A DNA stretch of 42,826 nt from a virus. Positions 6,047 through 28,688 of the stretch are shown in pieces (the stretch's first letter is position 1; each line of letters opens with the position of its first letter). The stretch is from the IMG/VR virus record IMGVR_UViG_3300021142_000062, positions 1-42,826 of that record; one strand, given 5' to 3'. The notes under the pieces were generated by a model, which did no database searches, was not told the origin of the DNA, and worked only from the letters and a program-made list of their open reading frames with translations. The position numbers were made by a program, and so were the translations under genes.

Positions 6047-6583
6047 ATGGCGAAGGCACCGGTGTCGAAGTGGGCGGAGTCGAAGCGCAGCGGCGACTAC
6101 GCGAGCGCGAAGGCGAAGGCCGACCAGGCGTCCGCGACGGCGGCGAACCACGGCAACGAGCTCCGGTCGAGTGCGGAGAGCGCGAAGCTTCACGACCGCG
6201 CGGCGAGCCTGCACAAGGAGGCCTCGAAGCTCGCGACGACGTCGCGCGACAAGAAGGACCACGACCGCTACGCGCTGGAGCACACGCGCGACAAGGCCGC
6301 GCACGAAGGCTACGCGGTCGAGCCCGAGAAGGCCGATCACTACAGCAAGCTGGCGAGCGATGCGTCGGCGCGCGCGGGTCGCGAAGAGGCGCGCGGTTCG
6401 TCGCAGAAGGACGAGTACCACCGCATCGCCGCGGACGCGCACGCGAAGGCTGCGAACCTCCAGCTCGAAGCCGGCAACAAGACCAAGGCGCTCGACCACG
6501 CTGGGCGCGCGCAGCTTCACGCGAGTGCTTCGGGCGACGACAAATACGTCCGCGATGAGCTCGGCCGCTTCGCCGGGAAGTAG
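6047..6583 (+). CDS. KWA/GRFASK family protein 1 (Ala/His/Lys-rich repeats)
   Basis: A 178-residue, Ala/Lys/His-rich, predicted all-helical protein. It begins with the family box PVSKWAESK (residues 5-13) and ends RDELGRFAGK. In between are repeated helical segments in which Ala, His and Glu/Lys recur (SAKLHDRAASLHKEASKLA, then DEYHRIAADAHAKAANLQLEAGN), giving a TPR-like look. It is the first of three tandem paralogues; two more lie at 11590 and 28431. There is no Shine-Dalgarno; a TAGGCT box sits 10 bases upstream. Function unknown. DNA-binding, scaffold or virion roles are possible but unproven. Confidence 0.85.
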   Translation: MAKAPVSKWAESKRSGDYASAKAKADQASATAANHGNELRSSAESAKLHDRAASLHKEASKLATTSRDKKDHDRYALEHTRDKAAHEGYAVEPEKADHYSKLASDASARAGREEARGSSQKDEYHRIAADAHAKAANLQLEAGNKTKALDHAGRAQLHASASGDDKYVRDELGRFAGK

Positions 6584-6586
6584 GAT
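6581..6586 (+). promoter_or_regulatory. -10 box TAGGAT of a predicted leaderless promoter
   Basis: TAGGAT, with TAG as the stop of the upstream gene, is 6 bases before the ATG at 6593. No Shine-Dalgarno is present. The same arrangement recurs at 7211. Confidence 0.45.
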
Positions 6587-6592
6587 CAGAAC

Positions 6593-7213
6593 ATGAGCCG
6601 CAAGTATTCGAGCGCAGCGGGCACGGCGAAGCTCGCGACGGACGTCGCCAATGAGCGCGGTGGTGCGGCTGCACACGTCGAAGCGGCGGGTGCACATCGG
6701 CGCGCGGCGTCGGTTGCGACCGCGCTCGGGCGTCACACCGAAGCGGCCACGCACCAGGCGCAGGCGAGCAGTCACGACCGCGCGTCTGCAGATCAGGGAG
6801 CGCTGGCGAAGTGGGCGTCGGATCGGCGAGCGGGTCGTGTCGAGTTCGTGCCGGGGCTGGAGAAGGCGTTGGGCCGAGCCGCGCAGGCCGCGACGACGAA
6901 GGCCGAGTCGGCGTCAGCGAAGGCGAACGCGGCGTCGCATCCCGATTCGCGCAAGCCCGATCACGAGGCGTCGCAGCTCCACGTCGAGGCGTATCACGCG
7001 CACATGGCTGCGGAGGCCGCGCACAAGGAGGCTGAGAATCCGGAGCGCGCGCGCGAGCACATGGTCGAGTCGTCGTTGCACGCGATCAAGGCGCGCGAGC
7101 ACCAGGAGGCGTACGTCGCCGGTGGAGGGTTCAAGACCTCGATCGATAAGAGCGCGAGCGGTGGTACGAGCACCATCCCGCGAGACGAGCACGGGCGCTT
7201 CGCGTCGAAGTAG
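6593..7213 (+). CDS. KWA/GRFASK family protein 2
   Basis: A 206-residue paralogue. The KWA box is not at the start but internal (LAKWASDRR, residues 71-79), so the first ~65 residues look like an added or duplicated repeat segment (AAAHVEAAGAHRRAASVATALGR). A second Ala/His helical segment follows (HAHMAAEAAHKEAENPERA), then the C-terminal tag RDEHGRFASK. It is therefore effectively [repeat]-[KWA box]-[repeat]-[tag]. It starts 9 bases after the previous gene, with a TAGGAT box instead of a ribosome-binding site. Function unknown. Confidence 0.83.
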   Translation: MSRKYSSAAGTAKLATDVANERGGAAAHVEAAGAHRRAASVATALGRHTEAATHQAQASSHDRASADQGALAKWASDRRAGRVEFVPGLEKALGRAAQAATTKAESASAKANAASHPDSRKPDHEASQLHVEAYHAHMAAEAAHKEAENPERAREHMVESSLHAIKAREHQEAYVAGGGFKTSIDKSASGGTSTIPRDEHGRFASK

Positions 7214-7216
7214 GAT
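7211..7216 (+). promoter_or_regulatory. -10 box TAGGAT of a predicted leaderless promoter
   Basis: TAGGAT (TAG is the upstream stop) lies 6 bases before the ATG at 7223, with no Shine-Dalgarno. Confidence 0.45.
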
Positions 7217-7222
7217 CCCACC

Positions 7223-7792
7223 ATGGCGAGTTCTCCGGTGCAGAAGTGGGCGGCGTCGAAGGTGCCCGACATGAAGGCGGTCGAGAAGGCCGCGCGCAAC
7301 GCGTTCGGCCAGTCGACGGCCGCCGGCGAGGCGAAGTCGATGGGTCGCGACACCGCGAAGATGCACAGCGACGCCTCGGCCGCGCACCGGTCTGCCGCGT
7401 CGGTGGCGACCAACGCAGGCATGTTCGCGCGTGCGAATCAGCACGAGATGATCGCGCGCGGGCACGACGTCGATGCGATGAAGCTCGGGTCGAAGGCCGA
7501 GCCGAAGGCGGCTGCGAAGCCCGCTGGCGGTGGTGCGAAGTCAGCGATCGATCTCGCGCGTCACGCCGAGTCGCTCACGCAGAAGCAGAACGGCGAGAGC
7601 GGCCACCGCGACGCCGAGAAGGCGCACCTCGCGGCTGCGTCTGCCTACCGTGCCGAGGGCAACCGCGAGCGCGCGGACCATCACACGCACGAGGCCGCCA
7701 CGCACGACAGGCTCGCCGAACGGATCGCGAACGAGCGCAACGATCCCGACGACATGCCTCGCGACGACCACGGACGCTTCGCGTCGAAGTGA
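7223..7792 (+). CDS. KWA/GRFASK family protein 3
   Basis: A 189-residue paralogue with the N-terminal box PVQKWAASK (residues 5-13) and C-terminal tag RDDHGRFASK. The middle holds helical segments with the family pattern (SAAHRSAASVATNAGMFARA, then HRDAEKAHLAAASAYRAEGN and HTHEAATHDRLAERIA). A Lys/Ala/Gly linker around residues 92-108 separates the two repeat blocks. It directly follows paralogue 2 and precedes the ParB-methyltransferase gene. Function unknown; the conserved ends suggest both termini are docking or processing signals. Confidence 0.85.
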   Translation: MASSPVQKWAASKVPDMKAVEKAARNAFGQSTAAGEAKSMGRDTAKMHSDASAAHRSAASVATNAGMFARANQHEMIARGHDVDAMKLGSKAEPKAAAKPAGGGAKSAIDLARHAESLTQKQNGESGHRDAEKAHLAAASAYRAEGNRERADHHTHEAATHDRLAERIANERNDPDDMPRDDHGRFASK

Positions 7793-7826
7793 GCCGCTGA
7801 TACCGTCGGGCGCGGAGGCGCGCACC

Positions 7827-9104
7827 ATGGGACGAGTGGCGATGGACGGAGCAGCTGCGGCTGCTCCTGAGAAGGTTGCTGCGAAGCGTTCGAAGAAGGC
7901 TGACGCGACGAAGGTCGTGAACCTCGGCTACGAGCTCGTCGATCCGTCGACGCTCAAGGAGCACCCGCGCAACGCGCGGCGCGGCAACATCAAGTCGATC
8001 GACGAGTCGGTCGGCAGCAATGGCTTCTACGGTGCGATCGTCGTGCAGAAGAGCACGCGCACGATCCTCAAGGGCAACCACACCTACCAGGTCGCGGTGG
8101 CGCGCCGGATGGCGTCGGTGCCGGTGATCTGGGTCGAGGTCGACGCGAAGACCGAGCAGCGGATCCTCATCGCGGACAACCGCACGTCCGACCTCGCCGG
8201 CTACGAGGACAAGGATCTTCTCGCGCTGCTGGTCGAGATGCAGAGCGAGCACAACCTCGTCGGCACCGGCTACAACGACGACGCGGTGATGCGCATGATC
8301 GCGTCGTCCGAAGAGGGGCGTCGCGCGACGATCACCGAGGACACGCCTCCGCCGGTGCCGAAGGTCGCGGAGACGAAGGTCGGCGATCTCTACCGGCTCG
8401 GTGACCACTTGCTCGTGTGCGCGGACTCGAAGACCTCGTCCGAGGTTGAGCGCGTGATGGGCGGCGCGCTTGCCGACATGGTGTGGACCGACCCGCCCTA
8501 CGGCGTCGCCTACAAGGGTGGGACGGCCGAGGGGCTGACGATCGAGAACGACGATCTCGACGCGCCGGCGCTGCGCGAGTTCCTGCGCACGACGCTGGGC
8601 GTCGCGTACTCACTCGCGAAGCCCGGCTCGGCTTGGTACGTCGCGGCGCCGTCGGGGAACCTCTTCTTGGAGTTCGCGGCGGTGCTCGGGCGCGAGGGCT
8701 TCGACGTCTGGAAGCACACCATCGTCTGGGTGAAGGATTCGCTCGTGCTCGGGCGCGCCGACTACCACTACCGGCACGAGTCGATCTTCTACGGGTGGAA
8801 GGAGGGCGCGGGTCACTTCTTCATCGACGACCGCAAGCAGGACACGGTCTGGGAGATCGCGCGGCCGAAGAAGTCGACCGACCACCCGACGATGAAGCCG
8901 GTCGAGCTCGTCGCGCGCGCGATCCAGAACAACACCGTGCGCGGTGGCATCGTGCTGGACGTCTTCGGCGGCAGCGGCACGACGCTCATCGCGGCCGAGC
9001 AGACCGGGCGCAGCGCGCGCCTGGTCGAGAAGTCGCCGAACTACTGCGACGTGATCGTGAAGCGATGGCAGGCGCTCACCGGGCGCACGGCAGAGAAGCT
9101 GTGA
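7827..9104 (+). CDS. ParB-like domain fused to a DNA (N6-adenine or N4-cytosine) methyltransferase
   Basis: A 425-residue two-domain protein. Residues ~33-130 form a ParB/Srx-like domain (LKEHPRNARRGNIKSID, ILKGNHTYQVA, VEVDAKTEQRILIADNRT). The methyltransferase has catalytic DPPY at 222-225 and the SAM-binding motif DVFGGSGTT at 378-386. DPPY before the glycine motif gives beta-class order. Such fusions are common in phages and modify phage DNA, often as protection from host restriction. The ATG at 7827 has GGAGG at 7814-7818; longer frames run into the upstream gene. The stop overlaps the next GTG. Confidence 0.92.
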   Translation: MGRVAMDGAAAAAPEKVAAKRSKKADATKVVNLGYELVDPSTLKEHPRNARRGNIKSIDESVGSNGFYGAIVVQKSTRTILKGNHTYQVAVARRMASVPVIWVEVDAKTEQRILIADNRTSDLAGYEDKDLLALLVEMQSEHNLVGTGYNDDAVMRMIASSEEGRRATITEDTPPPVPKVAETKVGDLYRLGDHLLVCADSKTSSEVERVMGGALADMVWTDPPYGVAYKGGTAEGLTIENDDLDAPALREFLRTTLGVAYSLAKPGSAWYVAAPSGNLFLEFAAVLGREGFDVWKHTIVWVKDSLVLGRADYHYRHESIFYGWKEGAGHFFIDDRKQDTVWEIARPKKSTDHPTMKPVELVARAIQNNTVRGGIVLDVFGGSGTTLIAAEQTGRSARLVEKSPNYCDVIVKRWQALTGRTAEKL

Positions 9105-9526
9105 TCTCGGACCGGGTGCGCCGGTGGTTGATCCGCATCGGCGAGAAGCTTTCGAAGACGTACTTCGAGGGGCCAGAGCCGCCCGAGCGGATCGCCGAGA
9201 TGGCGCGCGCGTTCGCCTCGATGAACCCGCGCGCGACGAAGGGCGAGTGGCTCGCGATGAGCGAGGAGCTCGCGCGTGAGGCGTACCGGTCCGGGTGGAC
9301 GCGCGGCTTCGAATTCGCGGAGCGGGATCCCGATGAGCCGAACCCGGCACCGGAGGAGCTCGCGGACGTGATGTCGCCGGGCTGGCGCGACCGCGCGCAC
9401 GATTGGCGCTGGGCAACGGACCTGCCGGTGCCGACCGAGCTCGATCGCGTGCCCGACGACGCCGGCCCGACCGTCGACGAGCGGATCGCGGCATTGATCG
9501 AAGCCAGCAGGACGCGCCGCGATTGA
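9101..9526 (+). CDS. Unknown protein downstream of the methyltransferase
   Basis: A 141-residue, mostly helical and charged protein (DRVRRWLIRIGEKLSKTYF at the start, WRDRAHDWRWATDLPVP later) with a GTG start overlapping the methyltransferase stop, so translation is likely coupled. I recognise no domain. The stop codon TGA is contributed by the AT-rich palindrome 9521-9542, placing a probable operator right at the end of this gene and marking a transcription-unit boundary. Confidence 0.75.
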   Translation: MISDRVRRWLIRIGEKLSKTYFEGPEPPERIAEMARAFASMNPRATKGEWLAMSEELAREAYRSGWTRGFEFAERDPDEPNPAPEELADVMSPGWRDRAHDWRWATDLPVPTELDRVPDDAGPTVDERIAALIEASRTRRD

Positions 9527-9542
9527 AAAACGTTTTTCGATC
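9521..9542. promoter_or_regulatory. 22-bp AT-rich palindrome, site 1
   Basis: GATTGAAAAAC is followed by GTTTTTCGATC, a near-perfect inverted repeat centred on AACGTT. It overlaps the stop of the upstream gene and lies 18 bases before the ATG of the next. Five other copies occur at 14544, 21679, 26663, 28693 and 34129. It stands out sharply in DNA this GC-rich. Probable repressor or partition-type binding site. Confidence 0.75.
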
Positions 9543-9560
9543 ACGCGCCGAGGAGGACCG

Positions 9561-9992
9561 ATGGACGCCGATGGGCTGCGAACGTGGGTGGAGACGATCC
9601 GAGGCGCGCGGCGCGCGCTGATGCACCGGGCGACGGGCCGCTTCGGCGCGGTCGTGGAGTTCTACGACGGCGTCGAGAAGGTCTACCGGTCGACCGAGGA
9701 CGGCTCGCTCACCGAGGGGCCGGTCGTCGAGCTCTCCTCGGGAGACGCGTTCCACGTGTATGCGGACGAGGACGGGTTCGGACCCGAGATGACGTTCCGC
9801 GCGCTCACGGTCGCCGAGACGCGCTTCTGGAGCCTCACGATGAGCGCGATCGCGGCCGCGGTCGGCGAGATCGCCGCGGCGGGTGCGGCGAACAAGATCC
9901 CAGAGGACATCGGGCCGGCGATGATCGCGGCGGCGCTGCGCCATCAGGCGACCGCGATCGCGGGGCCGATCGGTGACGAGGCGGTGCTGTGA
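9561..9992 (+). CDS. Unknown protein following palindrome site 1
   Basis: A 143-residue protein with a strong Shine-Dalgarno (AGGAGG at 9551-9556). The first half looks beta-rich (GRFGAVVEFYDGVEKVYRS, AFHVYADEDGF). The second half is Ala-rich and helical (AIAAAVGEIAAAGAANKIPED). It heads a block of six overlapping small genes running to 11577. No family recognised. Confidence 0.75.
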   Translation: MDADGLRTWVETIRGARRALMHRATGRFGAVVEFYDGVEKVYRSTEDGSLTEGPVVELSSGDAFHVYADEDGFGPEMTFRALTVAETRFWSLTMSAIAAAVGEIAAAGAANKIPEDIGPAMIAAALRHQATAIAGPIGDEAVL

Positions 9993-10357
9993 TCTTCGCG
10001 ATCGAATCGGTGGAAGGCGCGCAAGGGACGCTCGCGCGAGTCGTCTTCGTCGACGCGCCGAGCTTCTACGACGCGCGCGAGTGGGGTCGCGCGAAGTACG
10101 GCGAGCGGCTCCAGCTGGTGCTCGCGCACACGAAGCCGATCCTCGACAGCGACGGCCCGGTGCTCAAGGTCGGCGCGGTGCACCAGACGCCGTACGAGCG
10201 CGAGAGCGAGCACCGCGAGTCGATCACGGCGCGCGCGTACGAGAAGGGGCTCAAGGTCGGCATCGAGCGCGGGCGCGAGGAGATCCTCCGCGCCGGTCCT
10301 GGGCGTGCGTTCGACTACCCACCGGTGGCGCCTGCCGCCAAGTCGAGGAAGCGATGA
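9989..10357 (+). CDS. Unknown protein
   Basis: A 122-residue protein with a GTG start overlapping the previous stop by 4 bases. It has a short beta-rich N-terminal part (MIFAIESVEGAQGTLARVVFV), a central YDAREWGRAKYGE that resembles small phage proteins handling aromatic-rich surfaces, and a basic tail (AAKSRKR). No known domain is visible. Its place inside the run of 4-base overlaps indicates co-translation with its neighbours. Confidence 0.7.
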   Translation: MIFAIESVEGAQGTLARVVFVDAPSFYDAREWGRAKYGERLQLVLAHTKPILDSDGPVLKVGAVHQTPYERESEHRESITARAYEKGLKVGIERGREEILRAGPGRAFDYPPVAPAAKSRKR

Positions 10358-10773
10358 GCCAAGCCGCCAACGTGCACAACGCCATCGCGTCGCTCGTGGC
10401 GCTCTACGGGCAGACGCTCGCCGAGCAGGCGCGCGAGGCCGAGGCCGCGGTGAAGTCGCGCGACACGCAGATCGCGAGCCAGAGCGTGGTCATCGATTCG
10501 CTCAAGGTGGACCTCAAGGGGGTCGTGGCGGATCTCGCGAAGGCGAAGGCGCAGATCGAAGATGCGCGCGCCGAGCTCCTCGACCGCGAGGAGGTGATCG
10601 CGAATCAGGCGCAGTCGATCACCGAGGTCACGGCGCGCGCGGAGAACTTGAACCTGACGATGCTCCGTCAGTCGCGCGATCTCGATGCGTTGCGCGAGGC
10701 GTGGACGCAGCGTGGCAACGAGGCGCAGGAGCTCCGTGCCGCGCTTGCGGCTGCGACGGGAGCGCCGGGCTGA
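10354..10773 (+). CDS. Coiled-coil protein of unknown function
   Basis: A 139-residue protein that is almost entirely heptad-patterned helix from about residue 20 to 130 (AEQAREAEAAVKSRDTQIA, LAKAKAQIEDARAELLDREE). It has no Cys and few aromatics. It overlaps both neighbours by 1-4 bases. It could be a small oligomeric scaffold or partner protein; nothing more specific can be said. Confidence 0.75.
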   Translation: MSQAANVHNAIASLVALYGQTLAEQAREAEAAVKSRDTQIASQSVVIDSLKVDLKGVVADLAKAKAQIEDARAELLDREEVIANQAQSITEVTARAENLNLTMLRQSRDLDALREAWTQRGNEAQELRAALAAATGAPG

Positions 10774-11090
10774 TGGACGGCATCTCGACGACCTCGCGCG
10801 AGCTCGACGCGTTCCTCGCGCTCGCGCACGGGCCGAAGGCAGCGGCGTGGCTCGTGCGGCGGTTCCGCAGGTCGCTGAAGCAGTTCGGCGTGTTCTTCGT
10901 CGAGGTGAACCGCGGCCAGCAGGTGCCGCGCTGGTTCAGGCTCGCGATCGCGTCGCTGCGATCGCCGACGCACGCGCACGTCTGGACGGTGCTCTCGGTG
11001 CACCGGATCGGCTACGGAAACTCGCGGTTCGTCGTGAAGTGGAAGCTCTGGCCACACGAGGCCAAGCGCGCTGCGAAGCGGAGGTCGTGA
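10773..11090 (+). CDS. Basic unknown protein
   Basis: A 105-residue, Arg-rich protein (WLVRRFRRSLKQFGVFFVEV near residue 26, tail EAKRAAKRRS). Alternating hydrophobic and basic residues in the centre suggest a small alpha/beta fold able to bind nucleic acid, but no known motif is present. It starts at a TGATG junction with the coiled-coil gene and ends at a TGATG junction with the next gene. Confidence 0.72.
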   Translation: MDGISTTSRELDAFLALAHGPKAAAWLVRRFRRSLKQFGVFFVEVNRGQQVPRWFRLAIASLRSPTHAHVWTVLSVHRIGYGNSRFVVKWKLWPHEAKRAAKRRS

Positions 11091-11335
11091 TGGCGCGGAT
11101 ACCTAAAACACTCTATTGGCGGCACCACGGTCCCGAGCTTCACGTGTGCGTCTCGCGCCGCGGGCGCATCCTCCGCGCGCGCCTCGTCGCACCGCCGCGG
11201 ATGAAGTCGGGGATGATCGGACGCATCTCGGACGTCGTGTTCTACGGGTACATCGACACGAACGACGTCGAGTACGTGCCGGTGAAGATCGTGAGTCGCG
11301 ACAGCGTGATCGCGACCTTCGGGGAGATCGGCTGA
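11090..11335 (+). CDS. Small beta-rich unknown protein
   Basis: An 81-residue protein with a likely SH3-like or other small beta-barrel pattern (ELHVCVSRRGRILRARLVAPP, DVVFYGYIDTNDVEYVPVKIV). Codons 4-10 are unusually AT-rich for this region, which may keep the start unstructured for translation. It overlaps the previous and next genes by one base each. Function unknown. Confidence 0.72.
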   Translation: MARIPKTLYWRHHGPELHVCVSRRGRILRARLVAPPRMKSGMIGRISDVVFYGYIDTNDVEYVPVKIVSRDSVIATFGEIG

Positions 11336-11577
11336 TGGCACGCGTCAGCGAGAGCGCGACGCACGTGATCGAGCGGCCGGACTTCGCGCCGCACGTGCTT
11401 GCGACCTGGGAGCGCCGGCGCGTCGACGAGAGCGGTGAGGTGCCGCCGCAGCGGATCGAGCTCCGGTGTGATCGGTGCGAGGCGACGCACCTCGTGATCT
11501 GCCAATCCGGGCAGGTACGGCGGCACATTCACGCGTTCGGCGTGGCGCATCTGCACCGCGACGCGCTCTCGCGATAG
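11335..11577 (+). CDS. Small putative zinc-binding protein
   Basis: An 80-residue protein with a likely metal site: C45, C48 and C56 in ELRCDRCEATHLVIC, plus H64 and H66 in RRHIHAF. The N-terminal half is charged. It overlaps the previous gene by one base. The TAG stop is also the first half of the TAGGCT box of the next gene. No family recognised. Confidence 0.72.
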   Translation: MARVSESATHVIERPDFAPHVLATWERRRVDESGEVPPQRIELRCDRCEATHLVICQSGQVRRHIHAFGVAHLHRDALSR

Positions 11578-11580
11578 GCT
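11575..11580 (+). promoter_or_regulatory. -10 box TAGGCT of a predicted leaderless promoter
   Basis: TAGGCT is 9 bases before the ATG at 11590, with no Shine-Dalgarno between. The arrangement is the same as upstream of the paralogue at 6047. Confidence 0.5.
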
Positions 11581-11589
11581 CCGACCACC

Positions 11590-12210
11590 ATGGCGAAAGA
11601 CGTCGGCGCGAAGGTCGAGACCTCGAAGTACACCGGGCGCGTCGGCGTGACCGGCAAGGTCATCGGCAAGGTCGAGAAGGCACCGGTCTCGACCTGGGCT
11701 GCGGCGAAGCGTGATCGCGTCGAGGGATCGTTCGGGCGCGCGGTGAACGCGATCGCAGACGCGAGCCACGCCTCCTCCGACGCGAACATCAGCAACACCG
11801 CGGATGCGCATCTCCGCGCGGCGAAGGCGTACGACCGCGCTGCGGAAGTCGTGAAGTCGCGCGGTGGTGATCATGAGCACTACGCACGCGAGGCCGATGG
11901 CCATCGCGAGAAGGCTGCGAAGGCGAGCGATCTTCCCGGGCGCATGAAGGCGAGCGCGGAGAAGATGCACGGAGCCGCGTACGCGGCGAGCGACAAGGCG
12001 AACCAGACCGGCAAGGCAGCCGATCACGTCGACGCCGCGCAATCGCACGCGCGCGCCGCTGGGCAGTTTCCATCGGGCGATCCGCGCAAGCGCGCGCACC
12101 TCGACACCGCGGCGAATCACAAGGAGGCCGCGCGCACCGGCGCGAAGGCCGCGGGCGTTTCGGGCGATGATCGGCCGCGCGATGAACGTGGTCGGTTCGC
12201 GTCGAAGTAG
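11590..12210 (+). CDS. KWA/GRFASK family protein 4
   Basis: A 206-residue paralogue. About 30 extra N-terminal residues (Gly/Val/Lys-rich, VGVTGKVIGKVEK) precede the family box APVSTWAAAK (31-40). Helical Ala/His segments follow (DAHLRAAKAYDRAAEVV, HYAREADGHREKAAKA, HVDAAQSHARAAGQF, HLDTAANHKEAARTG) and the protein ends RDERGRFASK. It lies alone, 3.8 kb from the triplet at 6047-7792, yet keeps the same promoter layout, so the family appears to be regulated as a unit. Function unknown. Confidence 0.84.
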   Translation: MAKDVGAKVETSKYTGRVGVTGKVIGKVEKAPVSTWAAAKRDRVEGSFGRAVNAIADASHASSDANISNTADAHLRAAKAYDRAAEVVKSRGGDHEHYAREADGHREKAAKASDLPGRMKASAEKMHGAAYAASDKANQTGKAADHVDAAQSHARAAGQFPSGDPRKRAHLDTAANHKEAARTGAKAAGVSGDDRPRDERGRFASK

Positions 12211-12226
12211 CGGGGATTCCCGGGCG

Positions 12227-12266
12227 AAAAAAAAAACTTTGCATTGCCCGCGAGGCGAGCTAGCTT
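12227..12266 (+). promoter_or_regulatory. Sigma-70-type promoter P1 with A-tract
   Basis: A ten-base A-tract (12227-12236) precedes the -35 TTGCAT at 12239-12244, then a 16-base spacer and the -10 TAGCTT at 12261-12266. Transcription would start near 12273, giving a ~37-base leader with AAGGAGG before the ATG at 12310. The same design recurs at 13956-13991. Confidence 0.72.
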
Positions 12267-12309
12267 GGTCTCCACGGACGGCGCTTGAGGGCGCACCAAG
12301 GAGGCTCAG

Positions 12310-12546
12310 ATGGCGATGATCCCGACGACCCTGATCGTGGCGCTTGCGGTGCAGAACGTGGAGCTCTGGCGCGCGCCCGAGAACGAGAACCCGCTCCCCG
12401 GTGCGTCGGCCCCCGACTTCGCGGAGGCCTCCTGGGAGGTGGCGCGCGACAGCGACGAGCGCTTCGAGCGCTACAGCGACGAGGAGCTCGCGGCGTCGTG
12501 GCCGACCTACCTGCGCGCCTTCATGGCCGCGGCGGCGGTGTCGTGA
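12310..12546 (+). CDS. Small acidic unknown protein, first gene after promoter P1
   Basis: A 78-residue protein with a strong Shine-Dalgarno (AAGGAGG, 12298-12304). It starts with a hydrophobic stretch (MIPTTLIVALAVQNVELW) and continues very acidic (FAEASWEVARDSDERFERY). Being the first gene of a strong promoter, it is probably early-expressed; small acidic early phage proteins are often inhibitors of host functions, but that is speculation. It overlaps the next start by one base. Confidence 0.75.
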   Translation: MAMIPTTLIVALAVQNVELWRAPENENPLPGASAPDFAEASWEVARDSDERFERYSDEELAASWPTYLRAFMAAAAVS

Positions 12547-12863
12547 TGGCCCGCGCGCTCACGAAGTTCACGCCCGGCGACTGGGGCTGCTACTCGGGCG
12601 CCGAGCGCTTCGCCGGCGGCGGTGAGCCGCTCATCGGCGGGATCATGATCATCGTCGCCTCGGACGAGGCCGGCTGGGTGAACGACTCGATGCTGGCCGA
12701 CGTGATCGTGCACGGCGCAGGCGTGATCGTCGCGGTGACGCCCGAGTGCATGCTCGGGATCGCGTGCCCGACGAAGGCCGCGGCGGTGGCGATCGCCAAG
12801 CTGCTCCCGCAATCGATCACGCAAGAGGAGCTCCACGAGCTCGGCTTCGCCGATATCGGCTGA
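12546..12863 (+). CDS. Unknown protein, paralogue of the gene at 13178
   Basis: A 105-residue protein similar along its length to the product of 13178-13486: LTKFTPGDWGCYSGAERFAG here versus LRRFTKNDWDGFAGATHFAD there, both followed by DPLI or EPLI and ending with a short helix (TQEELHELGF versus SPETLVAAGL). The two define a small family that arose by local duplication. It looks like a compact alpha/beta domain. Function unknown; it sits in the P1-driven early-type operon. Confidence 0.78.
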   Translation: MARALTKFTPGDWGCYSGAERFAGGGEPLIGGIMIIVASDEAGWVNDSMLADVIVHGAGVIVAVTPECMLGIACPTKAAAVAIAKLLPQSITQEELHELGFADIG

Positions 12864-12865
12864 AC

Positions 12866-13138
12866 ATGGATGCGAAGACGAAGGCCACCGTCCGCAACAG
12901 CGCGCGCGACTCGTACGCCGTTGCGGACGCGTGCGAGCGGCTCGCCAGCGCGCTCGCCGCGCACGACCCCGAGGGGGCTGCCGAATGGCGTGCGGATGCG
13001 AAGCGCGCCAACACCGCGGCGCGCGCGGCGATGCGTAGGCTCGGGCGGTGGGGGCGCGACGCGTACCTTCGGGTGGAGCTCGAACGATCGGAGGCGAACG
13101 ACACCGCGTACCTGATGCTCACCGACGCAGATCACTAG
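12866..13138 (+). CDS. Small helical unknown protein
   Basis: A 90-residue, largely helical protein (SYAVADACERLASALAAHDP, AEWRADAKRANTAARAAMRRL) lying between the two paralogues at 12546 and 13178. It starts two bases after the previous stop and has no clear Shine-Dalgarno, so it probably relies on translational coupling. No domain recognised. Confidence 0.7.
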   Translation: MDAKTKATVRNSARDSYAVADACERLASALAAHDPEGAAEWRADAKRANTAARAAMRRLGRWGRDAYLRVELERSEANDTAYLMLTDADH

Positions 13139-13149
13139 GACCGATGTAT

Positions 13150-13166
13150 GGCCCCCGAGGGGGCAG
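13150..13166 (+). repeat. 17-bp leader repeat with hairpin potential, copy 1
   Basis: GGCCCCCGAGGGGGCAG occurs here and at 14014-14030. GCCCC and GGGGC can pair around a CGAG tetraloop. In both copies it lies 11-15 bases before the chosen start codon, next to the ribosome-binding site. Confidence 0.6.
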
Positions 13167-13177
13167 GAGAGATCACG

Positions 13178-13486
13178 ATGGCGACGCTTCGACGCTTCAC
13201 GAAAAACGACTGGGATGGGTTCGCCGGCGCCACGCACTTCGCGGACGGCGCCGACCCGCTGATCGCGTACATCAAGATCGCCTTCCCGGAGGCGCAGTAC
13301 GACGCGGTGCTCGTCGTCGACGGCGAGGGGATCGCGGTCATGGCGTGCGACGACGCCGGCATCGAGATCGGCCTCTGGGCGAACCACAAGATCCCGGTGC
13401 ACGAAGCGGTGCTCCTCGGTGCGACGTTGCCCGCGGTGGTCTCGCCCGAGACGCTGGTCGCGGCCGGGCTGGAGGATCACTCGTGA
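13178..13486 (+). CDS. Unknown protein, paralogue of the gene at 12546
   Basis: A 102-residue protein aligned to the 12546 product (FTKNDWDGFAGATHFADGADPLI). I chose the ATG at 13178 over the in-frame ATG at 13148 because its protein lines up with the paralogue's start, because AGGAGA at 13165-13170 is correctly spaced, and because 13148 would translate the leader hairpin that is non-coding at 14014. The protein contains a predicted beta-strand run (AVLVVDGEGIAVMACDDAGIE). Function unknown. Confidence 0.75.
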   Translation: MATLRRFTKNDWDGFAGATHFADGADPLIAYIKIAFPEAQYDAVLVVDGEGIAVMACDDAGIEIGLWANHKIPVHEAVLLGATLPAVVSPETLVAAGLEDHS

Positions 13487-13761
13487 TCGGCGCGGTGCCG
13501 ATGCACGAGATGGTCGAGCGCGCGGAGCGCGTCGCCGAGGCGCAGGCCCAGGCGCGCACCGGCGCTCGCGCGTGGTGGTTCAGCGCGTGGGGCACGCGCT
13601 ACGACTCGGGCTGGTGCTTCGGCGCCTCGCCCGAGGCCGCGCGTGAGCGCGTCGTGAGCGAGCTCGCCGCGCGCGGCTTCCGCGGCACGTACGCGATCTG
13701 CCTCACCACGCGCGAGGGCAACGAGTCGGTGCGCTTCGAGCGCGTGGAGATCGGCAAGTGA
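13483..13761 (+). CDS. Unknown protein
   Basis: A 92-residue protein with a GTG start overlapping the previous stop. An amphipathic helix (HEMVERAERVAEAQAQART) is followed by an alpha/beta segment rich in aromatics (ARAWWFSAWGTRYDSGWCF) and a helix-strand pair. No motif links it to a known family. It is the last clear gene before promoter P2. Confidence 0.72.
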   Translation: MIGAVPMHEMVERAERVAEAQAQARTGARAWWFSAWGTRYDSGWCFGASPEAARERVVSELAARGFRGTYAICLTTREGNESVRFERVEIGK

Positions 13762-13815
13762 GCCCGCGGCGCGTGCGGTGCGTAGCGCCGCGACGAGCTC
13801 CTCGCCTCGTACCCG

Positions 13816-13914
13816 ATGCAATCGGTCGTGCGGCTCATCGTGGCGGCGCTCGATCGGCTGCACGCGGGCGAAGTCGTCGAGGTGGCGCGCCTCCGGATCT
13901 GGCGCATCTCGTGA
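13816..13914 (+). CDS. Possible short or broken gene
   Basis: A 32-residue frame (MQSVVRLIVAALDRLHAG and on to VARLRIWRIS) has the strongly GC-biased third positions of real genes here. The coding signal extends upstream to about 13783 in the same frame but is cut by a TAG, with no good start codon or ribosome-binding site. It may be the end of a frameshifted gene that began near 13758. Only weakly supported. Confidence 0.3.
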   Translation: MQSVVRLIVAALDRLHAGEVVEVARLRIWRIS

Positions 13915-13955
13915 TCCATGGGTTCGCGGAACCCGCAAGAAAAACCGCACCTAAT

Positions 13956-13991
13956 AAAAAAACTTGCAAGGTGCCGGTCCGTGCGTATGCT
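13956..13991 (+). promoter_or_regulatory. Sigma-70-type promoter P2 with A-tract
   Basis: An A-tract at 13956-13962 is followed by TTGCAA (-35, 13964-13969), a 16-base spacer and TATGCT (-10, 13986-13991). It closely matches P1 in A-tract, -35, spacer length and the downstream GGTCTC. The leader to the ATG at 14046 is ~48 bases and holds the 17-bp hairpin repeat. Confidence 0.75.
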
Positions 13992-14013
13992 GGGTCTCAG
14001 GCGACGACGAACC

Positions 14014-14030
14014 GGCCCCCGAGGGGGCAG
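14014..14030 (+). repeat. 17-bp leader repeat with hairpin potential, copy 2
   Basis: Identical to 13150-13166. It lies in the leader of the P2 transcript, 15 bases before the ATG at 14046. Confidence 0.6.
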
Positions 14031-14045
14031 AAGGCGCAGGACCAG

Positions 14046-14459
14046 ATGGCGATCAACAACCGACCGACGATGAGCACGGAAGAGGCGATCAACGAGGCGC
14101 GCGCGACGATCCGCGCCGCCGGCATCCGCGGCCTCCGCGCCCTCCCCGAGTCGAGCGGCGATTACATCTGCGCCGAATTCGAGCGCGCCGACCGCCGCGT
14201 GAACTGCACCCTCTACGTGCGCACCGGGTACCCGCGCACCGAGAAGGCGACCTGGAAGGGCGCGGGCGAGAACGAGATGGTCTTCGGGACCACGATCGTG
14301 GTCGAGATCACCTGGTCGAGCACCGGGCGCACGCCTGCCGAGGCGATCGCGTGCATCAAGCTATACACCGAGGTCGCGGAGCTCGCGGCGGAGCTCGAAG
14401 CCCGCTTCGCGCACGACCGGATCGGCGAGGTGCTCGACGTGACGCCGAAGGCCGGCTGA
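14046..14459 (+). CDS. Unknown protein driven by promoter P2
   Basis: A 137-residue protein. An N-terminal helix (STEEAINEARATIRAAGIRGL) is followed by a beta-rich core (YICAEFERADRRVNCTLYVRT and MVFGTTIVVEITWSSTG) and a C-terminal helical hairpin (IACIKLYTEVAELAAELEARF). The ATG lies downstream of the P2 leader; the frame is open upstream, but that DNA holds the promoter. No family recognised. Confidence 0.8.
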   Translation: MAINNRPTMSTEEAINEARATIRAAGIRGLRALPESSGDYICAEFERADRRVNCTLYVRTGYPRTEKATWKGAGENEMVFGTTIVVEITWSSTGRTPAEAIACIKLYTEVAELAAELEARFAHDRIGEVLDVTPKAG

Positions 14460-14472
14460 GCGCGGCATCGAC
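14460..14472 (+). promoter_or_regulatory. 13-bp gene-junction motif GCGCGGCATCGAC, copy 1
   Basis: It lies directly after the stop of the upstream gene and 4 bases before the tRNA-like fold at 14477. Near-identical copies precede the genes at 20777, 22079, 25584 and 28776. The motif may mark transcription starts. Confidence 0.5.
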
Positions 14473-14476
14473 GGAG

Positions 14477-14542
14477 GCGCCGCCCGACCGGGCGGAGCGA
14501 GGGCAACCTCGCCAGCGGGTTCGACCCCCGCGCGGCGCGCCA
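14477..14542 (+). ncRNA. Compact tRNA-like RNA with perfect acceptor and T arms and encoded CCA
   Basis: A cloverleaf can be drawn with no mismatches: acceptor GCGCCGC (14477-14483) with GCGGCGC (14532-14538); a 3-bp D stem (CCG/CGG, loop of 6); a 5-bp anticodon stem GCGAG/CTCGC with a 6-base loop GGCAAC; a 2-base variable region; a T stem GCGGG/CCCGC with loop TTCGACC; discriminator G and CCA at 14540-14542. It lacks U33, the 8-9 linker and a normal D loop, so it is probably not a decoding tRNA. It may be a processing signal, a decayed tRNA or an attachment-site remnant. Confidence 0.5.
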
Positions 14543-14543
14543 C

Positions 14544-14565
14544 GATTGAAAAACGTTTTTCGATC
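14544..14565. promoter_or_regulatory. 22-bp AT-rich palindrome, site 2
   Basis: The sequence is identical to site 1 (GATTGAAAAAC then GTTTTTCGATC). It begins one base after the CCA of the tRNA-like fold and lies 31 bases before the ATG of the DUF932-like gene. Confidence 0.75.
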
Positions 14566-14596
14566 GCGAACCCAGACCCCAAACCAGGAGAGACCG

Positions 14597-16300: not shown

Positions 16301-16302
16301 GC

Positions 16303-16374: not shown

Positions 16375-16400
16375 AGACCACCAACCGAGGAGAGAGGCCG

Positions 16401-20209: not shown

Positions 20210-20224
20210 ACGAAGGAGAGACCG

Positions 20225-20770: not shown

Positions 20771-20776
20771 CGAGGC

Positions 20777-21381: not shown

Positions 21382-21824
21382 GCGAGAAGTCAGAGCAGCG
21401 CGCGCAGCTGATCGTGCTCGGCGAAGTGGTGCGGCGGCTCACCGGGCGCGCCGAGCTCGTCCAGAACACGGCGACGCGCCACCCCGACCCCGAGATCGCG
21501 CTCCGGTCCAAGATCCGGCTCGACGCCTACGTGCTCGCGCTGCAGGAGGTGGCCTGGGTGGTCGGCGACGTGACCCGGAACGGCCCCCTCCGGGCGCCCA
21601 CGAGCCCCGCTGACGCGCCTTCGCCCCCTGGGCGGGCAACCGGCCCCACCCCGGCGCCGGGCGCGCCCACGGCGGCTCCATTGAAAAACGTTATTCAATC
21701 GCCAACCGGGCGGGTGAAGCCGCGCCTGATGGGGTGCAACACGCACGGCTGCCAGGGCGAGGTCGGGCTTTCGACCGAGGTGTGCTCGGAGTGCAAGACC
21801 GTCCGCGGTGCGCCGCCCCGATGA
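21378..21824 (+). CDS. Two-domain protein with Pro-rich linker and C-terminal zinc ribbon; carries a palindrome inside
   Basis: A 148-residue protein with a GTG start overlapping the previous stop. Residues 1-70 are helical (QLIVLGEVVRRLTGRAELV, RLDAYVLALQEVAWVVG). Residues ~71-100 are a Pro/Ala/Gly linker. The C-terminal part has C119, C123, C134 and C137 in GCNTHGC and VCSEC, a likely zinc ribbon. AT-rich palindrome 21679-21700 lies in-frame at the end of the linker and encodes LKNVIQS. The linker may be where the palindrome was tolerated. Confidence 0.72.
   Translation: MSEKSEQRAQLIVLGEVVRRLTGRAELVQNTATRHPDPEIALRSKIRLDAYVLALQEVAWVVGDVTRNGPLRAPTSPADAPSPPGRATGPTPAPGAPTAAPLKNVIQSPTGRVKPRLMGCNTHGCQGEVGLSTEVCSECKTVRGAPPR
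21679..21700. promoter_or_regulatory. 22-bp AT-rich palindrome, site 3 (inside a gene)
   Basis: CATTGAAAAAC is followed by GTTATTCAATC. It differs from sites 1 and 2 at three positions and is the only copy wholly inside a coding region. It lies in codons for a flexible linker, so the DNA site appears to be kept for its own sake. Confidence 0.7.
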
Positions 21825-22060: not shown

Positions 22061-22072
22061 CGCGGCATCGAC
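22060..22072 (+). promoter_or_regulatory. 13-bp gene-junction motif GCGCGGCATCGAC, copy 3
   Basis: It begins at the last base of the TAG stop at 22058-22060 and ends 6 bases before the ATG at 22079, which has no Shine-Dalgarno. Confidence 0.5.
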
Positions 22073-22078
22073 GTCGCC

Positions 22079-23813: not shown

Positions 23814-24484
23814 CCGAGATCGAACAGAAGCCGTTCGTGGAGATGAAGTTCGTGTACCGCGCCAACCAGATCGGGGTGGATCCGGCGCGCCTCGGTCGCT
23901 TCGTCGAAGGGGTGACCCGTCGCGCGGTCGAGGAGCGGATCTCGGTCATCGAGCTCGCGACCACGCGTGAGGAGGTCTCGTTCACGTGCCACCTCATCCT
24001 CCACGGGGTGCACGTGCGCGAAGGCGATCTCGCGCCCGAGGACATCGCCGAACGTTGGCGCCCGGTCTTCGCCACGCTCGGCGACATCGTGCGCGACACC
24101 GAGGCCCAGTCGCACTTCGCCGAGCCCCCGCTCGGTGACGGCCCCTACGTGCGCGTCACGTACTGCGACGTCGGCGGCTGGGTGCGCCGCCAGCGCACGG
24201 TCCTCGTCTCCCCCGAGACGTACGCGCGCTGGGTCGAGCTCACCACCCAGCATGGCGCGCTGGAGGTGTTCGTGCGCTCCCCGATCGATCGCCTGATGAA
24301 CCTCTTCTCCGCCACCGTGGTCACGACCGAGACGCACCTCGACGGGCACTACTTCGGCGCCGCGGTGACCTACCAGATGCCCGCGCGTGGCGTGCCGCTC
24401 AGCGAGCACATCGCCTCCGCGCTCGACAAGCTCCTCGCGAAGGAGCTCACGCGCTGCGAGGCCGGTTCGGAGCCGTCGTCGTGA
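23810..24484 (+). CDS. Unknown protein
   Basis: A 224-residue protein with a GAGGACCCC leader and ATGA overlap. It mixes strands and helices (FVEMKFVYRANQIGVDPARL, TFTCHLILHGVHV-like region, WVRRQRTVLVSPETYARWV) and ends in a Ser/Glu tail. The layout suggests two alpha/beta subdomains. No known family or catalytic motif. The stop overlaps the next GTG. Confidence 0.74.
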   Translation: MTEIEQKPFVEMKFVYRANQIGVDPARLGRFVEGVTRRAVEERISVIELATTREEVSFTCHLILHGVHVREGDLAPEDIAERWRPVFATLGDIVRDTEAQSHFAEPPLGDGPYVRVTYCDVGGWVRRQRTVLVSPETYARWVELTTQHGALEVFVRSPIDRLMNLFSATVVTTETHLDGHYFGAAVTYQMPARGVPLSEHIASALDKLLAKELTRCEAGSEPSS

Positions 24485-24923: not shown

Positions 24924-24952
24924 TCCGCGGCGTGCGTAGAGCGTCGATCGGG

Positions 24953-24958
24953 TAATAA
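24953..24958 (+). promoter_or_regulatory. Possible -10 box TAATAA before the small terminase gene
   Basis: TAATAA is the most AT-rich hexamer in the 50-base gap upstream of the ATG at 24974, 15 bases away. It sits inside an AGAGC/GCTCT inverted repeat (24938-24963). No good -35 is visible, so this is tentative. Confidence 0.35.
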
Positions 24959-24973
24959 GCTCTCAAGGTCACA

Positions 24974-25564: not shown

Positions 25565-25576
25565 CGCGGCATCGAG
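25564..25576 (+). promoter_or_regulatory. 13-bp gene-junction motif GCGCGGCATCGAG, copy 4
   Basis: It begins at the last base of the stop at 25562-25564 and ends 7 bases before the ATG at 25584, which lacks a good Shine-Dalgarno. Confidence 0.5.
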
Positions 25577-25583
25577 GGAACCC

Positions 25584-26171: not shown

Positions 26172-26386
26172 GGCCGGCGCCGACGACGGTCACCGAGGCG
26201 ATCGACATGCTCAAGGCGATGGGCGTGGAGCCGAACACGACGTGCACCGGGTGCCGGGCGCGCGTGTTCGTCGTCACCTACTCGGTCGGGCGCGATCGCA
26301 TCAGCGAGTGCGCTGCGTGCTCGCACGTGTTCGCCGTCGGGCCTGCAACGGACGAAGCGGCCATCATCGGTCCGGAGCTGCCATGA
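26168..26386 (+). CDS. Small zinc-ribbon protein
   Basis: A 72-residue protein with a clear CxxC-x18-CxxC ribbon (C26, C29, C48, C51 in TCTGC and ECAAC) after a short N-terminal helix (VTEAIDMLKAMGV). GTG start overlapping the upstream stop. Such mini-ribbons bind nucleic acid or stabilise larger complexes. Its place beside the terminase genes may hint at a packaging accessory, but this is context only. Confidence 0.74.
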   Translation: MRPAPTTVTEAIDMLKAMGVEPNTTCTGCRARVFVVTYSVGRDRISECAACSHVFAVGPATDEAAIIGPELP

Positions 26387-26664
26387 GCGGCCCGCAGACG
26401 ATCGAGCCGAGCGGGCGCGCGGTGGTGTGCTCGCCTGGGTGCCGTCACCCGACGTGCGTGGCGATCGTGGAGGCCGAGGAGCGTGCCGCGGCCGAGCAGC
26501 TGCGTGCGATCGAAGAGACCGCGGCGCGCATCCATCGCGCCCGGGTGACCGAGCTCGTCGATCGGGTGCACGCGGGGATCATCGGCAGCCCCACCCTGGT
26601 GGCGCGCGTCGACGCGACCAACGCGCTCAGGGAGCTCGCCGAGCTGGCCAAGGCAGCGCGCTGA
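26383..26664 (+). CDS. Unknown helical protein before the large terminase
   Basis: A 93-residue protein. C16, C20 and C25 in VVCSPGCRHPTC may form part of a metal site; the rest is helical (EAEERAAAEQLRAIEETAAR, VDATNALRELAELAKAA). ATGA overlap with the zinc-ribbon gene. Its TGA stop overlaps AT-rich palindrome site 4. Function unknown. Confidence 0.7.
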   Translation: MSGPQTIEPSGRAVVCSPGCRHPTCVAIVEAEERAAAEQLRAIEETAARIHRARVTELVDRVHAGIIGSPTLVARVDATNALRELAELAKAAR

Positions 26665-26684
26665 TCGAAAAACGTTTTTCAATC
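26663..26684. promoter_or_regulatory. 22-bp AT-rich palindrome, site 4
   Basis: GATCGAAAAAC is followed by GTTTTTCAATC. It overlaps the stop codon of the upstream gene and lies 16 bases before the ATG of the large terminase, so it is well placed to control that gene. Confidence 0.75.
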
Positions 26685-26700
26685 GTGGCACCATCGGGCG

Positions 26701-28419
26701 ATGCGCGACCCGGCCAACGAGATCCACGTACCCGCCCCTCCGATCAACCTGCTCACCGACCCGGTCGCGATCCGCGCGGCGACACGCCTGCTGCTACGCA
26801 AGGCCGAGCGCGCGCGGACGAACCTGCCTGACTTCTTCGAGTTCACGCTGCGCGACGAGCTCACGCAGGCGTACCTCAAGGTCGCCGCACACCAGCGCGT
26901 GATGCTCGACTTCATCGAGAAGCACGATCGCGCGGTCGTGTTCATGCCCCCCGGGTTCGCGAAGACGTTTACCGCCGCGGGCGTCACGCTGCACCTGCTC
27001 GGCAACGACCCGAGCTCGCGCGGGCTGCTCGTGTCGGCGACGCAGGGGCAGACCAAGGCGCCGATCGTGATGGTGCGCTCGTACATCGAGAGCTCGGAGC
27101 GTCTGAAGCTCGTGTTTCCCGGGCTGCGCAAGACGCAGCGCCAGGGCGAGCCGTGGACGATGACCGAGCTCACGGTCGATCGTCCCTACGGCATCCGCAC
27201 GCCCTCGATCCTCGGCGTCGGGATGGACTCCGATCAGGTGCCGGGCAAGCGCAGCTCGTGGATCGTGGTCGACGACCTGCTCACGCGCGAGAACACGGAC
27301 ACGAAGGCGCAGCGCGACAAGATCCACACGTGGTTCGACTCGACGGTGCTCGCGCGCCTCGACCCGCGTGACGCGCGCATCGTCGTGCTCAACACGGCGT
27401 GGCACCCGGACGACCTTCTGCACCGGCTGGAGCGCGCGGGCTGGCCGACGCTGCGCATGGACATCGAGGGCGACATCACGATCCGCACGCCTCCGATCCT
27501 GCACTTCGACGGCACGATGAGCGACGACACCTGGGGCATCGACGACGAGATCTCGAAGTACATCCGCCCGCGCGACGACAGCAGCTACGGACCCGAGTGG
27601 GCGATCGTGCGCTTGACCACGCACGACCCCGACGAAGCGAACCAGGAGACGCTGTGGCCGGAGAAGTTCCCGCGTGGCGTCGTGGACCAGATCCGCTACC
27701 GGCATCTCCCGGTCGAGTTCAACCGCGTCTTCAAGCAGGTGTGCCGCGACGACGACACCGCGCTCTGCAAGATCGAATGGATCGAGGGCTGCAAGAAGAA
27801 GGCACGCGAGCTCGGCATCCATTCGATGCAATCGAAGCCGACCGCGAAGGCGAAGTGGGTGGTCATCGGCGTCGACCTCGCGGTGAGCCCGGGCGAGGAG
27901 CACGACGACACCGCGTTCGTGACGTTCGAGGTCTGGGCCGATGGCACGCGCTGCCTGCTCGATGTCGATTGCGGGCAGTTCGACGGGCCGACGATCGTCG
28001 ACAAGGTGATCGCCAAGTGGCAGCAGTACCGCGTCGCGGATCTCGACCCGCTCGTGATGGTCGAGAACAACGCCGCGCAGGCGTACATCAAGCAGTTCAC
28101 GCTCGCGAAGAACATGCTGGTCCCGATCGACGGCTTCACGACCGGTCGCGCGAAGGTGCACCCGGACACGGGCGTCCCAGCGTTCTTCATCGAGATCAAG
28201 AACGGCGTCTGGCTCTTCCCGAACGACGCGACCGGTGCGTGCCACAAGCACGTCCAGCGGCTGATCGACGCGTGCCTCTACTACATGCCGAGTCGCCACA
28301 CGGACGACGCGCTGATGGCGATGTACTTCGCCCGTGAGCGAGCTCGCCAGATCGGCATCCCGAGCGGCGGTGACGCGAACAACGGCGGCGGGCTCGGGAT
28401 CGACCTGATGTTGCGCTAG
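26701..28419 (+). CDS. terL: Terminase large subunit
   Basis: A 572-residue packaging motor. The ATPase part has a variant Walker A (FMPPGFAKTFTA, 81-92), Walker B WIVVDD (187-192) and the coupling motif VLNTAWHPDD (229-238). The RNase H-like nuclease has VIGVDLAVSPGEEHDD (388-403) with its catalytic Asp and a C-terminal DDALMAMYFA. It cuts and pumps DNA into proheads. No portal gene follows, which is unusual. No Shine-Dalgarno is evident; palindrome site 4 is 16 bases upstream. The TAG stop forms the next TAGGCT box. Confidence 0.95.
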   Translation: MRDPANEIHVPAPPINLLTDPVAIRAATRLLLRKAERARTNLPDFFEFTLRDELTQAYLKVAAHQRVMLDFIEKHDRAVVFMPPGFAKTFTAAGVTLHLLGNDPSSRGLLVSATQGQTKAPIVMVRSYIESSERLKLVFPGLRKTQRQGEPWTMTELTVDRPYGIRTPSILGVGMDSDQVPGKRSSWIVVDDLLTRENTDTKAQRDKIHTWFDSTVLARLDPRDARIVVLNTAWHPDDLLHRLERAGWPTLRMDIEGDITIRTPPILHFDGTMSDDTWGIDDEISKYIRPRDDSSYGPEWAIVRLTTHDPDEANQETLWPEKFPRGVVDQIRYRHLPVEFNRVFKQVCRDDDTALCKIEWIEGCKKKARELGIHSMQSKPTAKAKWVVIGVDLAVSPGEEHDDTAFVTFEVWADGTRCLLDVDCGQFDGPTIVDKVIAKWQQYRVADLDPLVMVENNAAQAYIKQFTLAKNMLVPIDGFTTGRAKVHPDTGVPAFFIEIKNGVWLFPNDATGACHKHVQRLIDACLYYMPSRHTDDALMAMYFARERARQIGIPSGGDANNGGGLGIDLMLR

Positions 28420-28422
28420 GCT
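28417..28422 (+). promoter_or_regulatory. -10 box TAGGCT of a predicted leaderless promoter
   Basis: TAGGCT, with TAG as the terminase stop, lies 8 bases before the ATG at 28431. No Shine-Dalgarno is present. Confidence 0.5.
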
Positions 28423-28430
28423 CGCGCATC

Positions 28431-28688
28431 ATGAGCGACGTGAGCAAATGGGCGGAATCGAAGATGTCGCCGCAAGTCGCAGCGAAGGCCGCATCGCGCG
28501 TCGCTGAGAAGAGCGGGACGTCGGTTGATCACAGGGCTGCGGCTGATGCTCATCGCAAAGCGTCGGCTGACTCGCTCGCGAGCGGCAACAAGAAGGCAGC
28601 GCGGGAACACCACGACAACGCCAAGTTGCACTCGTCGAAGGCGTCCGAGATCGAGCGCGACGAGCGTGGGCGCTTCGCCGCGAAGTAG
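28431..28688 (+). CDS. KWA/GRFASK family protein 5 (minimal version)
   Basis: An 85-residue minimal member: N-terminal box DVSKWAESK (residues 3-11), one helical Ala/His repeat block (HRAAADAHRKASADSLASGN, AAREHHDNAKLHSSKA) and the C-terminal tag RDERGRFAAK. It shows the essential architecture of the family. It lies right after the terminase gene and 5 bases before palindrome site 5. Position beside packaging genes and a leaderless promoter fits late expression. Function unknown. Confidence 0.85.
   Translation: MSDVSKWAESKMSPQVAAKAASRVAEKSGTSVDHRAAADAHRKASADSLASGNKKAAREHHDNAKLHSSKASEIERDERGRFAAK

Follow-up and report, generated by a model that had tools for sequence, protein, structure and literature searches.

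The 42.8-kb phage fragment analysed here (the window; 69% G+C) is an IMG/VR sequence of a phage known from environmental sequence alone. Among its 63 called genes we found five open reading frames (ORFs), starting at 6047, 6593, 7223, 11590 and 28431, whose products share their ends (Table 1). Each ends in the tag RD[ED]xGRFA[SAG]K followed by the stop codon, often with Pro or His-Pro directly ahead of it (PRD or HPRD), and each carries one tryptophan-containing box, (V/L)xxWAxxx (the W box). An earlier reading by a model that saw only the letters (the sequence-only reading) had reported the five ORFs, a KWA-type box and a terminal RDExGRF(A)xK tag; all five are where it placed them and both motifs could be read in every translation. 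Its count of one box per member, internal in one of them, also held, though in two members the position of the box is not strictly at the N-terminus. Its statement that the members are kept far apart did not hold, since three of the five are tandem neighbours. A six-frame scan of the window found no sixth coding member. The tag codons differ synonymously among the five, with four codons used for Gly and two each for Arg, Asp and Ala. This indicates that the tag is conserved at the protein level and excludes a recent DNA copy.

The five proteins are rich in Ala, His and Lys. In their MAFFT alignment the columns that never vary hold four His, a few Ala and the C-terminal tag core. The signature H-x6-H-x16..19-H-x6-H was found in all five members and in no other of the called window genes; composition shuffles yield it in 0.05-1.5%. 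When tag and box were left out, local alignments among the five bodies scored at z 3-9 over composition shuffles, and some pairs of window bodies with members from outside the window were not above such shuffles. Judged from these sequences, most of the bodies are related beyond composition. The sequence-only reading had proposed structure prediction of single members, and AlphaFold2 (AF2) models of the 85- and 189-residue members are helical hairpins. In the shorter one the three helices have block values of 90-97 for the predicted local distance difference test (pLDDT), with the box at 52 and the tag at 59-67, as expected for short linear motifs. The ends of the 189-residue member lie at about pLDDT 75.

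Scans of Pfam, PHROGs, NCBIfam and PADLOC found no family above chance for the five proteins; the single weak PADLOC match, RT_UG29 at E 0.009 in one of the five, is not a profile-level membership. A tblastn search with member 3 returned nothing from 50,697 phage records and likewise nothing for relatives in IMG/VR, and a PDB profile search gave no match. Foldseek against PDB and BFVD gave no match under E 0.001 and returned mostly TPR-like or designed bundles; the best TPR-like match had E 0.06, and the VIA-align Z values, all below 8, have little meaning for a helical bundle. The antiparallel helical hairpins modelled for the window proteins may be akin to those of TPR proteins, to which there are weak Pfam and Foldseek matches. 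All Pfam TPR scores fell short of the curated cut-offs: TPR_2 in member 1 reached 9.2 bits against a cut-off of 27 (E 2) and TPR_12 in a homologue from a relative of the window phage (G003, below) reached 18.4 bits against 30.1 (E 0.0024). The TPR consensus is not known to include fixed, heptad-spaced His. A MuF, portal or effector catalytic domain was also sought in the five members by Pfam and PHROG, and no family scored above chance.

By lining up gene starts we found a TANNNT box ahead of the family genes; a sigma-70 consensus scan over 5400-14600 had given no promoters. The same promoter type on all five genes, as the sequence-only reading had it, was borne out: TAGG[AC]TC precedes the ATG in five of five, and its hexamer TAGG[AC]T ends 6-10 nt upstream of that codon. 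At that position TANNNT occurs in none of the 40 other genes left of 28431 (Fisher 8e-7, family versus left genes), about half of which have a Shine-Dalgarno-like stretch. It occurs in 8 of the 18 genes to the right, and the gp80-type fibre and GDSL/laminin G genes are among these eight. Each of the five family boxes overlaps the TAG with which the preceding gene stops. The boxes of the genes at 31995, 33703, 34174, 35344, 38953 and 41812 do not overlap a preceding stop codon, so the stop codon does not explain the element as such. In mycobacteria the -10 type is TANNNT located 7-12 bp before the start site, and transcription often starts at the start codon, giving leaderless messages (PMC3898074). 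Among relatives of the window phage the box lies almost wholly on the coding strand. It stands ahead of a MuF-like head morphogenesis gene and the terminase large subunit gene (TerL) in the nearest relative, G001 (82 kb, colinear with the window, terminase 68% identical), ahead of a baseplate wedge gene in G003 (100 kb, terminase 39%), and ahead of others. The five genes therefore look late-expressed, and we infer from the box that their expression is leaderless or near-leaderless. Four of the five appear to be late genes placed in the early (replication) region.

The order of tag and box is not fixed in these relatives. G003 has one member at the same RuvC-like/methylase junction as the window, and a tandem pair at 82546-83287. 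The first protein of the pair is an 83-residue 4-His hairpin with the box at its C-terminus; the second is a 159-residue helical protein with an N-terminal tag (GEFNEDEHPRDAGRFTAKGGG) and the box towards its C-terminus. In G406, FDEDSHPRDERGRFSSGGGGG is followed by two boxes in a protein cut by the contig end. This permuted order is strong evidence for movable linear motifs. Of the three G003 members, two also have the four-His signature, as does the member from G002. At the RuvC-like/methyltransferase (MTase) junction, where the window has three members, G001 has a remnant of fewer than 30 codons that reads TAK-SELLTWAAKRGAGPKTGDQGRFASK-stop. In it the window's ATGGCGAAG reads ACAGCGAAG, TAGGCT reads TAGGAC and ATG reads ACA; by its sequence the remnant is a relic with box and tag joined. 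The gene after TerL in G001 encodes a small protein with the W box GLMVWARSK and no tag, and a homologue in G405 has GLKEWAKK. Small W-box proteins of this kind, encoded at L005:12441-12644 (minus strand) and G405 23911-24102, have a second conserved block, DPxALAVWLRKKAIG, and no tag; in G001 such a gene immediately follows TerL and has a promoter box of the late type ahead of it.

An exact scan for RD[ED]xGRFAxK-stop over 2.9 million IMG/VR contigs returned eight stretches. Three contigs of one type (L008, L012 and L015, counted once among distinct ORFs) carry two tandem tagged genes with N-terminal W boxes between the major head protein and neck/sheath genes. L011 has a tagged ORF at the same place, upstream of a sheath-type gene, with a W box and a wholly different middle. 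The tagged ORF of L013 lies between TerL and portal and has no W box. L009 is G003 itself; its strict-tag ORF bears an N-terminal W box, and so does the tagged ORF of L017, a contig of a Methylocystis metagenome-assembled genome from a GTDB scan. A search of 397 genomes of the Methylocystis order matched only the source genome, so this is not a widespread prophage family in that order. Four of the five distinct strict-tag ORFs have W[AV] near the N-terminus, against a background of 4.2% (p 1.6e-5); the window phage and L009 are distantly related, which leaves three of the four as independent. In L025 a tagged gene adjoins what is by eye a portal-like gene. We rejected the pattern matches in L010, L014, L016, L018 and L020 as chance or non-coding, those in L019, L021, L024 and L026 as tag-like ends without the family body, and the FP_Brigit portal match as an internal form, FNEADHPRDENGQFAEG, rather than a terminal tag. 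Ends that recur in unrelated phages with differing middles and move between termini favour the view of the sequence-only reading, a dedicated system rather than drift.

A wider motif, F[DN]xxxHPRDxxGRF, was found in 54 IMG/VR stretches and 47 called ORFs. By Pfam and PHROGs these ORFs include portal proteins (Phage_portal 4, Portal_Mu 3, P23-45 portal 1), MuF (4), head maturation proteases, and effector or polyvalent domains (ADPrib_exo_Tox, ART-PolyVal, PBECR2, LPD1/3/13, Zeta toxin). The motif is N-terminal, between domains, or near the C-terminus. That portal, MuF, head-protease and effector proteins carry it lends support to the idea that the terminal tags are functional. RDxxG[RQK][FW] is present in 54 ORFs of these loci and the reversed motif in none. 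Since the forward motif had served to select the loci, independent evidence comes only from the further tagged ORFs that seven of them contain. In one unrelated phage contig (L073:1-10433, minus strand) five RDxxGR[FW]-tagged genes lie around a MuF gene (Pfam E 3e-5, below the cut-off). One encodes an ADP-ribosyltransferase (E 5e-16) and two encode proteins with Ala/His-rich helical stretches, one of which matches the hairpin profile of the window family (E 2.7e-6). SmbP is a small, His-rich helical protein with heptad repeats that binds several divalent metal ions. A tagged L073 protein matches SmbP (PF16785) weakly (E 0.0016, below the cut-off); the five window proteins have no match to this profile even at E 10.

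None of the library families describes the motif, and the five proteins matched no described family. A literature search for the motif strings, with subscription journals and preprints outside it, found nothing on phages, and limited term searches within PMC5512222 and PMC5576092 turned up no mention of the linker motif.

We favour, with moderate confidence, the reading that the five are accessory late-expressed proteins, most likely loaded into or onto the phage head via docking motifs for a shared head partner. The W box ((V/L)xxWAxxK) and the (HP)RDxxGRFxxK tag would be the docking addresses during assembly, and the portal, MuF, the scaffold or a protease complex could be the partner. With a shared docking partner, one machinery could carry different bodies. 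As cargo, the folded helical hairpin body, rich in Ala and His, may bind metal or nucleic acid through its His, either within the particle or once ejected; the heptad-spaced His and the weak SmbP match of the L073 protein, not of the window proteins, suggest metal. Of the three roles that the sequence-only reading had offered for the tags, the best fit is loading into virions or assembly with a common partner; proteolytic maturation is a poor fit for C-terminal tags whose chain stops three residues after GRF. As a broader and more doubtful proposal, (HP)RDxxG(R/Q)F might be a general head-cargo address of many unrelated tailed phages, borne alike by stand-alone proteins and by portal, MuF, protease, ADP-ribosyltransferase and further effector proteins, with the W box as a second address.

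Several observations weigh against head loading. No portal or capsid gene was recognised among the called genes of the window, so the docking partner is not seen in this phage, and no window protein besides the five members has the tag. Equating the C-terminal RDExGRFASK with the internal HPRDxxGRF would rest on a core of 5-6 residues. The nearest relative, G001, has no intact family member, which shows the proteins to be dispensable. The promoter assignment is a candidate drawn from a -10-like match, and the box does not mark virion genes exclusively, since a helicase gene of G003 and the RuvC-like gene of G001 have one too.

If not virion parts, the five could work inside the cell late in infection, in metal handling, in a chaperone-like role or as scaffolds for nucleic acid, with shared ends that dock to an enzyme of the host or the phage. 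Four of the five lie among replication and recombination genes, beside the RuvC-like gene and a DNA methylase, a location kept in G003, and the His-rich hairpins with the weak SmbP match of the L073 protein would suit such a role. However, the promoter type is common to virion genes, the tag is common to portal, MuF and protease proteins, and the tagged genes of unrelated phages sit in head modules. We consider the intracellular role rather unlikely.

The main mechanistic rival is that the tag is a site for the maturation protease, where a cut at or near GRF(A/S) would free cargo domains in the capsid and trim stand-alone C-terminal tags. The motif often lies between a portal, MuF or protease domain and an effector domain, and RDxxG[RQ][FW] is repeated three to four times, apparently between domains, in the large polyproteins of L080:689-3988 and L054:3369-7550. 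In L022 and L023 it is near what is by eye an apparent prohead protease gene. In the window, L008, L009, L011 and L017, however, the chain ends three residues after GRF, and cleavage there would remove almost nothing. Conservation also reaches the final Lys, and no head protease was identified in the window fragment. On balance a protease site is improbable. Ordinary paralogue amplification, with like ends from recent duplicates and low-complexity composition for the rest, would suit three tandem, Ala/His/Lys-rich members, but it is already contradicted by the outside matches, where the ends persist in unrelated phages despite different middles and in permuted order, and with the synonymous divergence of the tag codons and body similarity above composition shuffles it has very little probability left.

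Head loading has precedents in known systems. In T4, ten residues from the N-terminus of IPIII are enough to bring foreign proteins into the head, and IPI, IPII and IPIII, like the window family, are several small, poorly conserved proteins with a common terminal sequence of about 10 residues (PMC9026906). In both, one phage has different bodies with a short terminal sequence in common, the signal role being putative in the window family. The T4 capsid targeting sequence (CTS), however, is an N-terminal propeptide removed by gp21, whereas the present family uses two motifs that can sit at either terminus. No T4-like core or gp21 was found; the likeness to T4 proposed here is one of kind, and neither Pfam nor PHROGs matched the five proteins. 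Polyvalent proteins and MuF polymorphic toxins are head-linked carriers of injected effector domains (PMC5512222, PMC5576092). Many of the F[DN]xxxHPRDxxGRF proteins belong to this class, and its RDxxGRF core is common to the window members, a membership feature by our own, unpublished criterion. Unlike that class, the window proteins are helical bodies that stand alone and lack any portal, MuF or enzyme domain.

Table 1. Positions in the window of the five family genes, their motifs and candidate promoter boxes
Feature	Position	Strand	Remarks
Member 1	6047..6583	+	178 aa; W box N-terminal, tag C-terminal
Member 2	6593..7213	+	206 aa; two 4-His hairpins; W box internal; tag C-terminal
Member 3	7223..7792	+	189 aa; two 4-His hairpins; AF2 model helical, mean pLDDT 80
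Member 4	11590..12210	+	206 aa; 30-aa N-terminal extension ahead of W box
Member 5	28431..28688	+	85 aa; directly after terminase large subunit; AF2 three-helix core
W box VSKWAESK, member 1	6062..6085	+	sequence
W box LAKWASDR (internal), member 2	6803..6826	+	sequence
W box VQKWAASK, member 3	7238..7261	+	sequence
W box VSTWAAAK, member 4	11686..11709	+	sequence
W box VSKWAESK, member 5	28440..28463	+	sequence
Tag RDELGRFAGK, member 1	6551..6580	+	stop codon directly after
Tag RDEHGRFASK, member 2	7181..7210	+	stop codon directly after
Tag RDDHGRFASK, member 3	7760..7789	+	stop codon directly after
Tag RDERGRFASK, member 4	12178..12207	+	stop codon directly after
Tag RDERGRFAAK, member 5	28656..28685	+	stop codon directly after
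Candidate late-type promoter box TAGGCTC, member 1	6031..6037	+	gene-start line-up
Candidate promoter box TAGGATC, member 2	6581..6587	+	gene-start line-up
Candidate promoter box TAGGATC, member 3	7211..7217	+	gene-start line-up
Candidate promoter box TAGGCTC, member 4	11575..11581	+	gene-start line-up
Candidate promoter box TAGGCTC, member 5	28417..28423	+	gene-start line-up
4-His helical hairpin, member 1	6419..6520	+	residues 125-158
4-His helical hairpin a, member 2	6674..6775	+	residues 28-61
4-His helical hairpin b, member 2	6980..7081	+	residues 130-163
4-His helical hairpin a, member 3	7364..7465	+	residues 48-81
4-His helical hairpin b, member 3	7604..7705	+	residues 128-161
4-His helical hairpin, member 4	12025..12120	+	residues 146-177
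4-His helical hairpin, member 5	28530..28631	+	residues 34-67

The window encodes, by gene calls and Pfam, ThyX, Metallophos and AAA_23 proteins, which we take to be SbcD/SbcC-like, a DNA methylase and a UvrD-type helicase. The gene we call RuvC-like was recognised by eye and has no Pfam match. The window terminase matches annotated terminase large subunits, and to its right lie fibre-type genes (gp80 family; GDSL with laminin G) and a papain-like protease. Relatives have exchanged the methylase that follows the RuvC-like gene (window 7842-9104; L006; L040), with an N4/N6 methylase in the window by Pfam and, by eye, separate ParB-like and methylase genes in G001 and a C5-methylase-like gene in G003. 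A conserved element ahead of the MTase gene, TACCGTCG, is present in a single copy in the window.

A palindrome, GAAAAACGTTTTTC, occurs six times (9525-9538, 14548-14561, 21683-21696, 26667-26680, 28697-28710 and 34133-34146), mostly in or edging intergenic DNA and with one mismatch in two copies; 0.01 were expected in shuffles. It is a candidate phage operator or stoperator-like site. The two large fibre-type proteins (31995-33623 and 38953-41742) have a common N-terminal domain of about 70 residues (MAT[WF]YLLNxVRVGT...), also found at 6493-6720 of G406. This domain is probably a virion anchor with exchanged C-terminal parts, one of them with a GDSL hydrolase and laminin G. The 520-residue protein at 36840-38402 consists mostly of short Gly/Ser/Thr/Ala/Val repeats (GVGxSTGxATVxGxG) and has a counterpart in G001.

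How accessory proteins are chosen for head packing and injection is known in few cases, such as the T4 CTS and MuF fusions. If the five proteins are virion proteins as we infer, they would be a variant of head-delivered accessory phage proteins. If the broader proposal is true, proteins tagged with (HP)RDxxG(R/Q)F would be co-packaged and predictable from sequence alone. The short motif would then offer a way to predict from sequence which phage proteins are injected, effectors and anti-defence proteins among them, and its role as a loading signal could be put to a direct test in laboratory phages.

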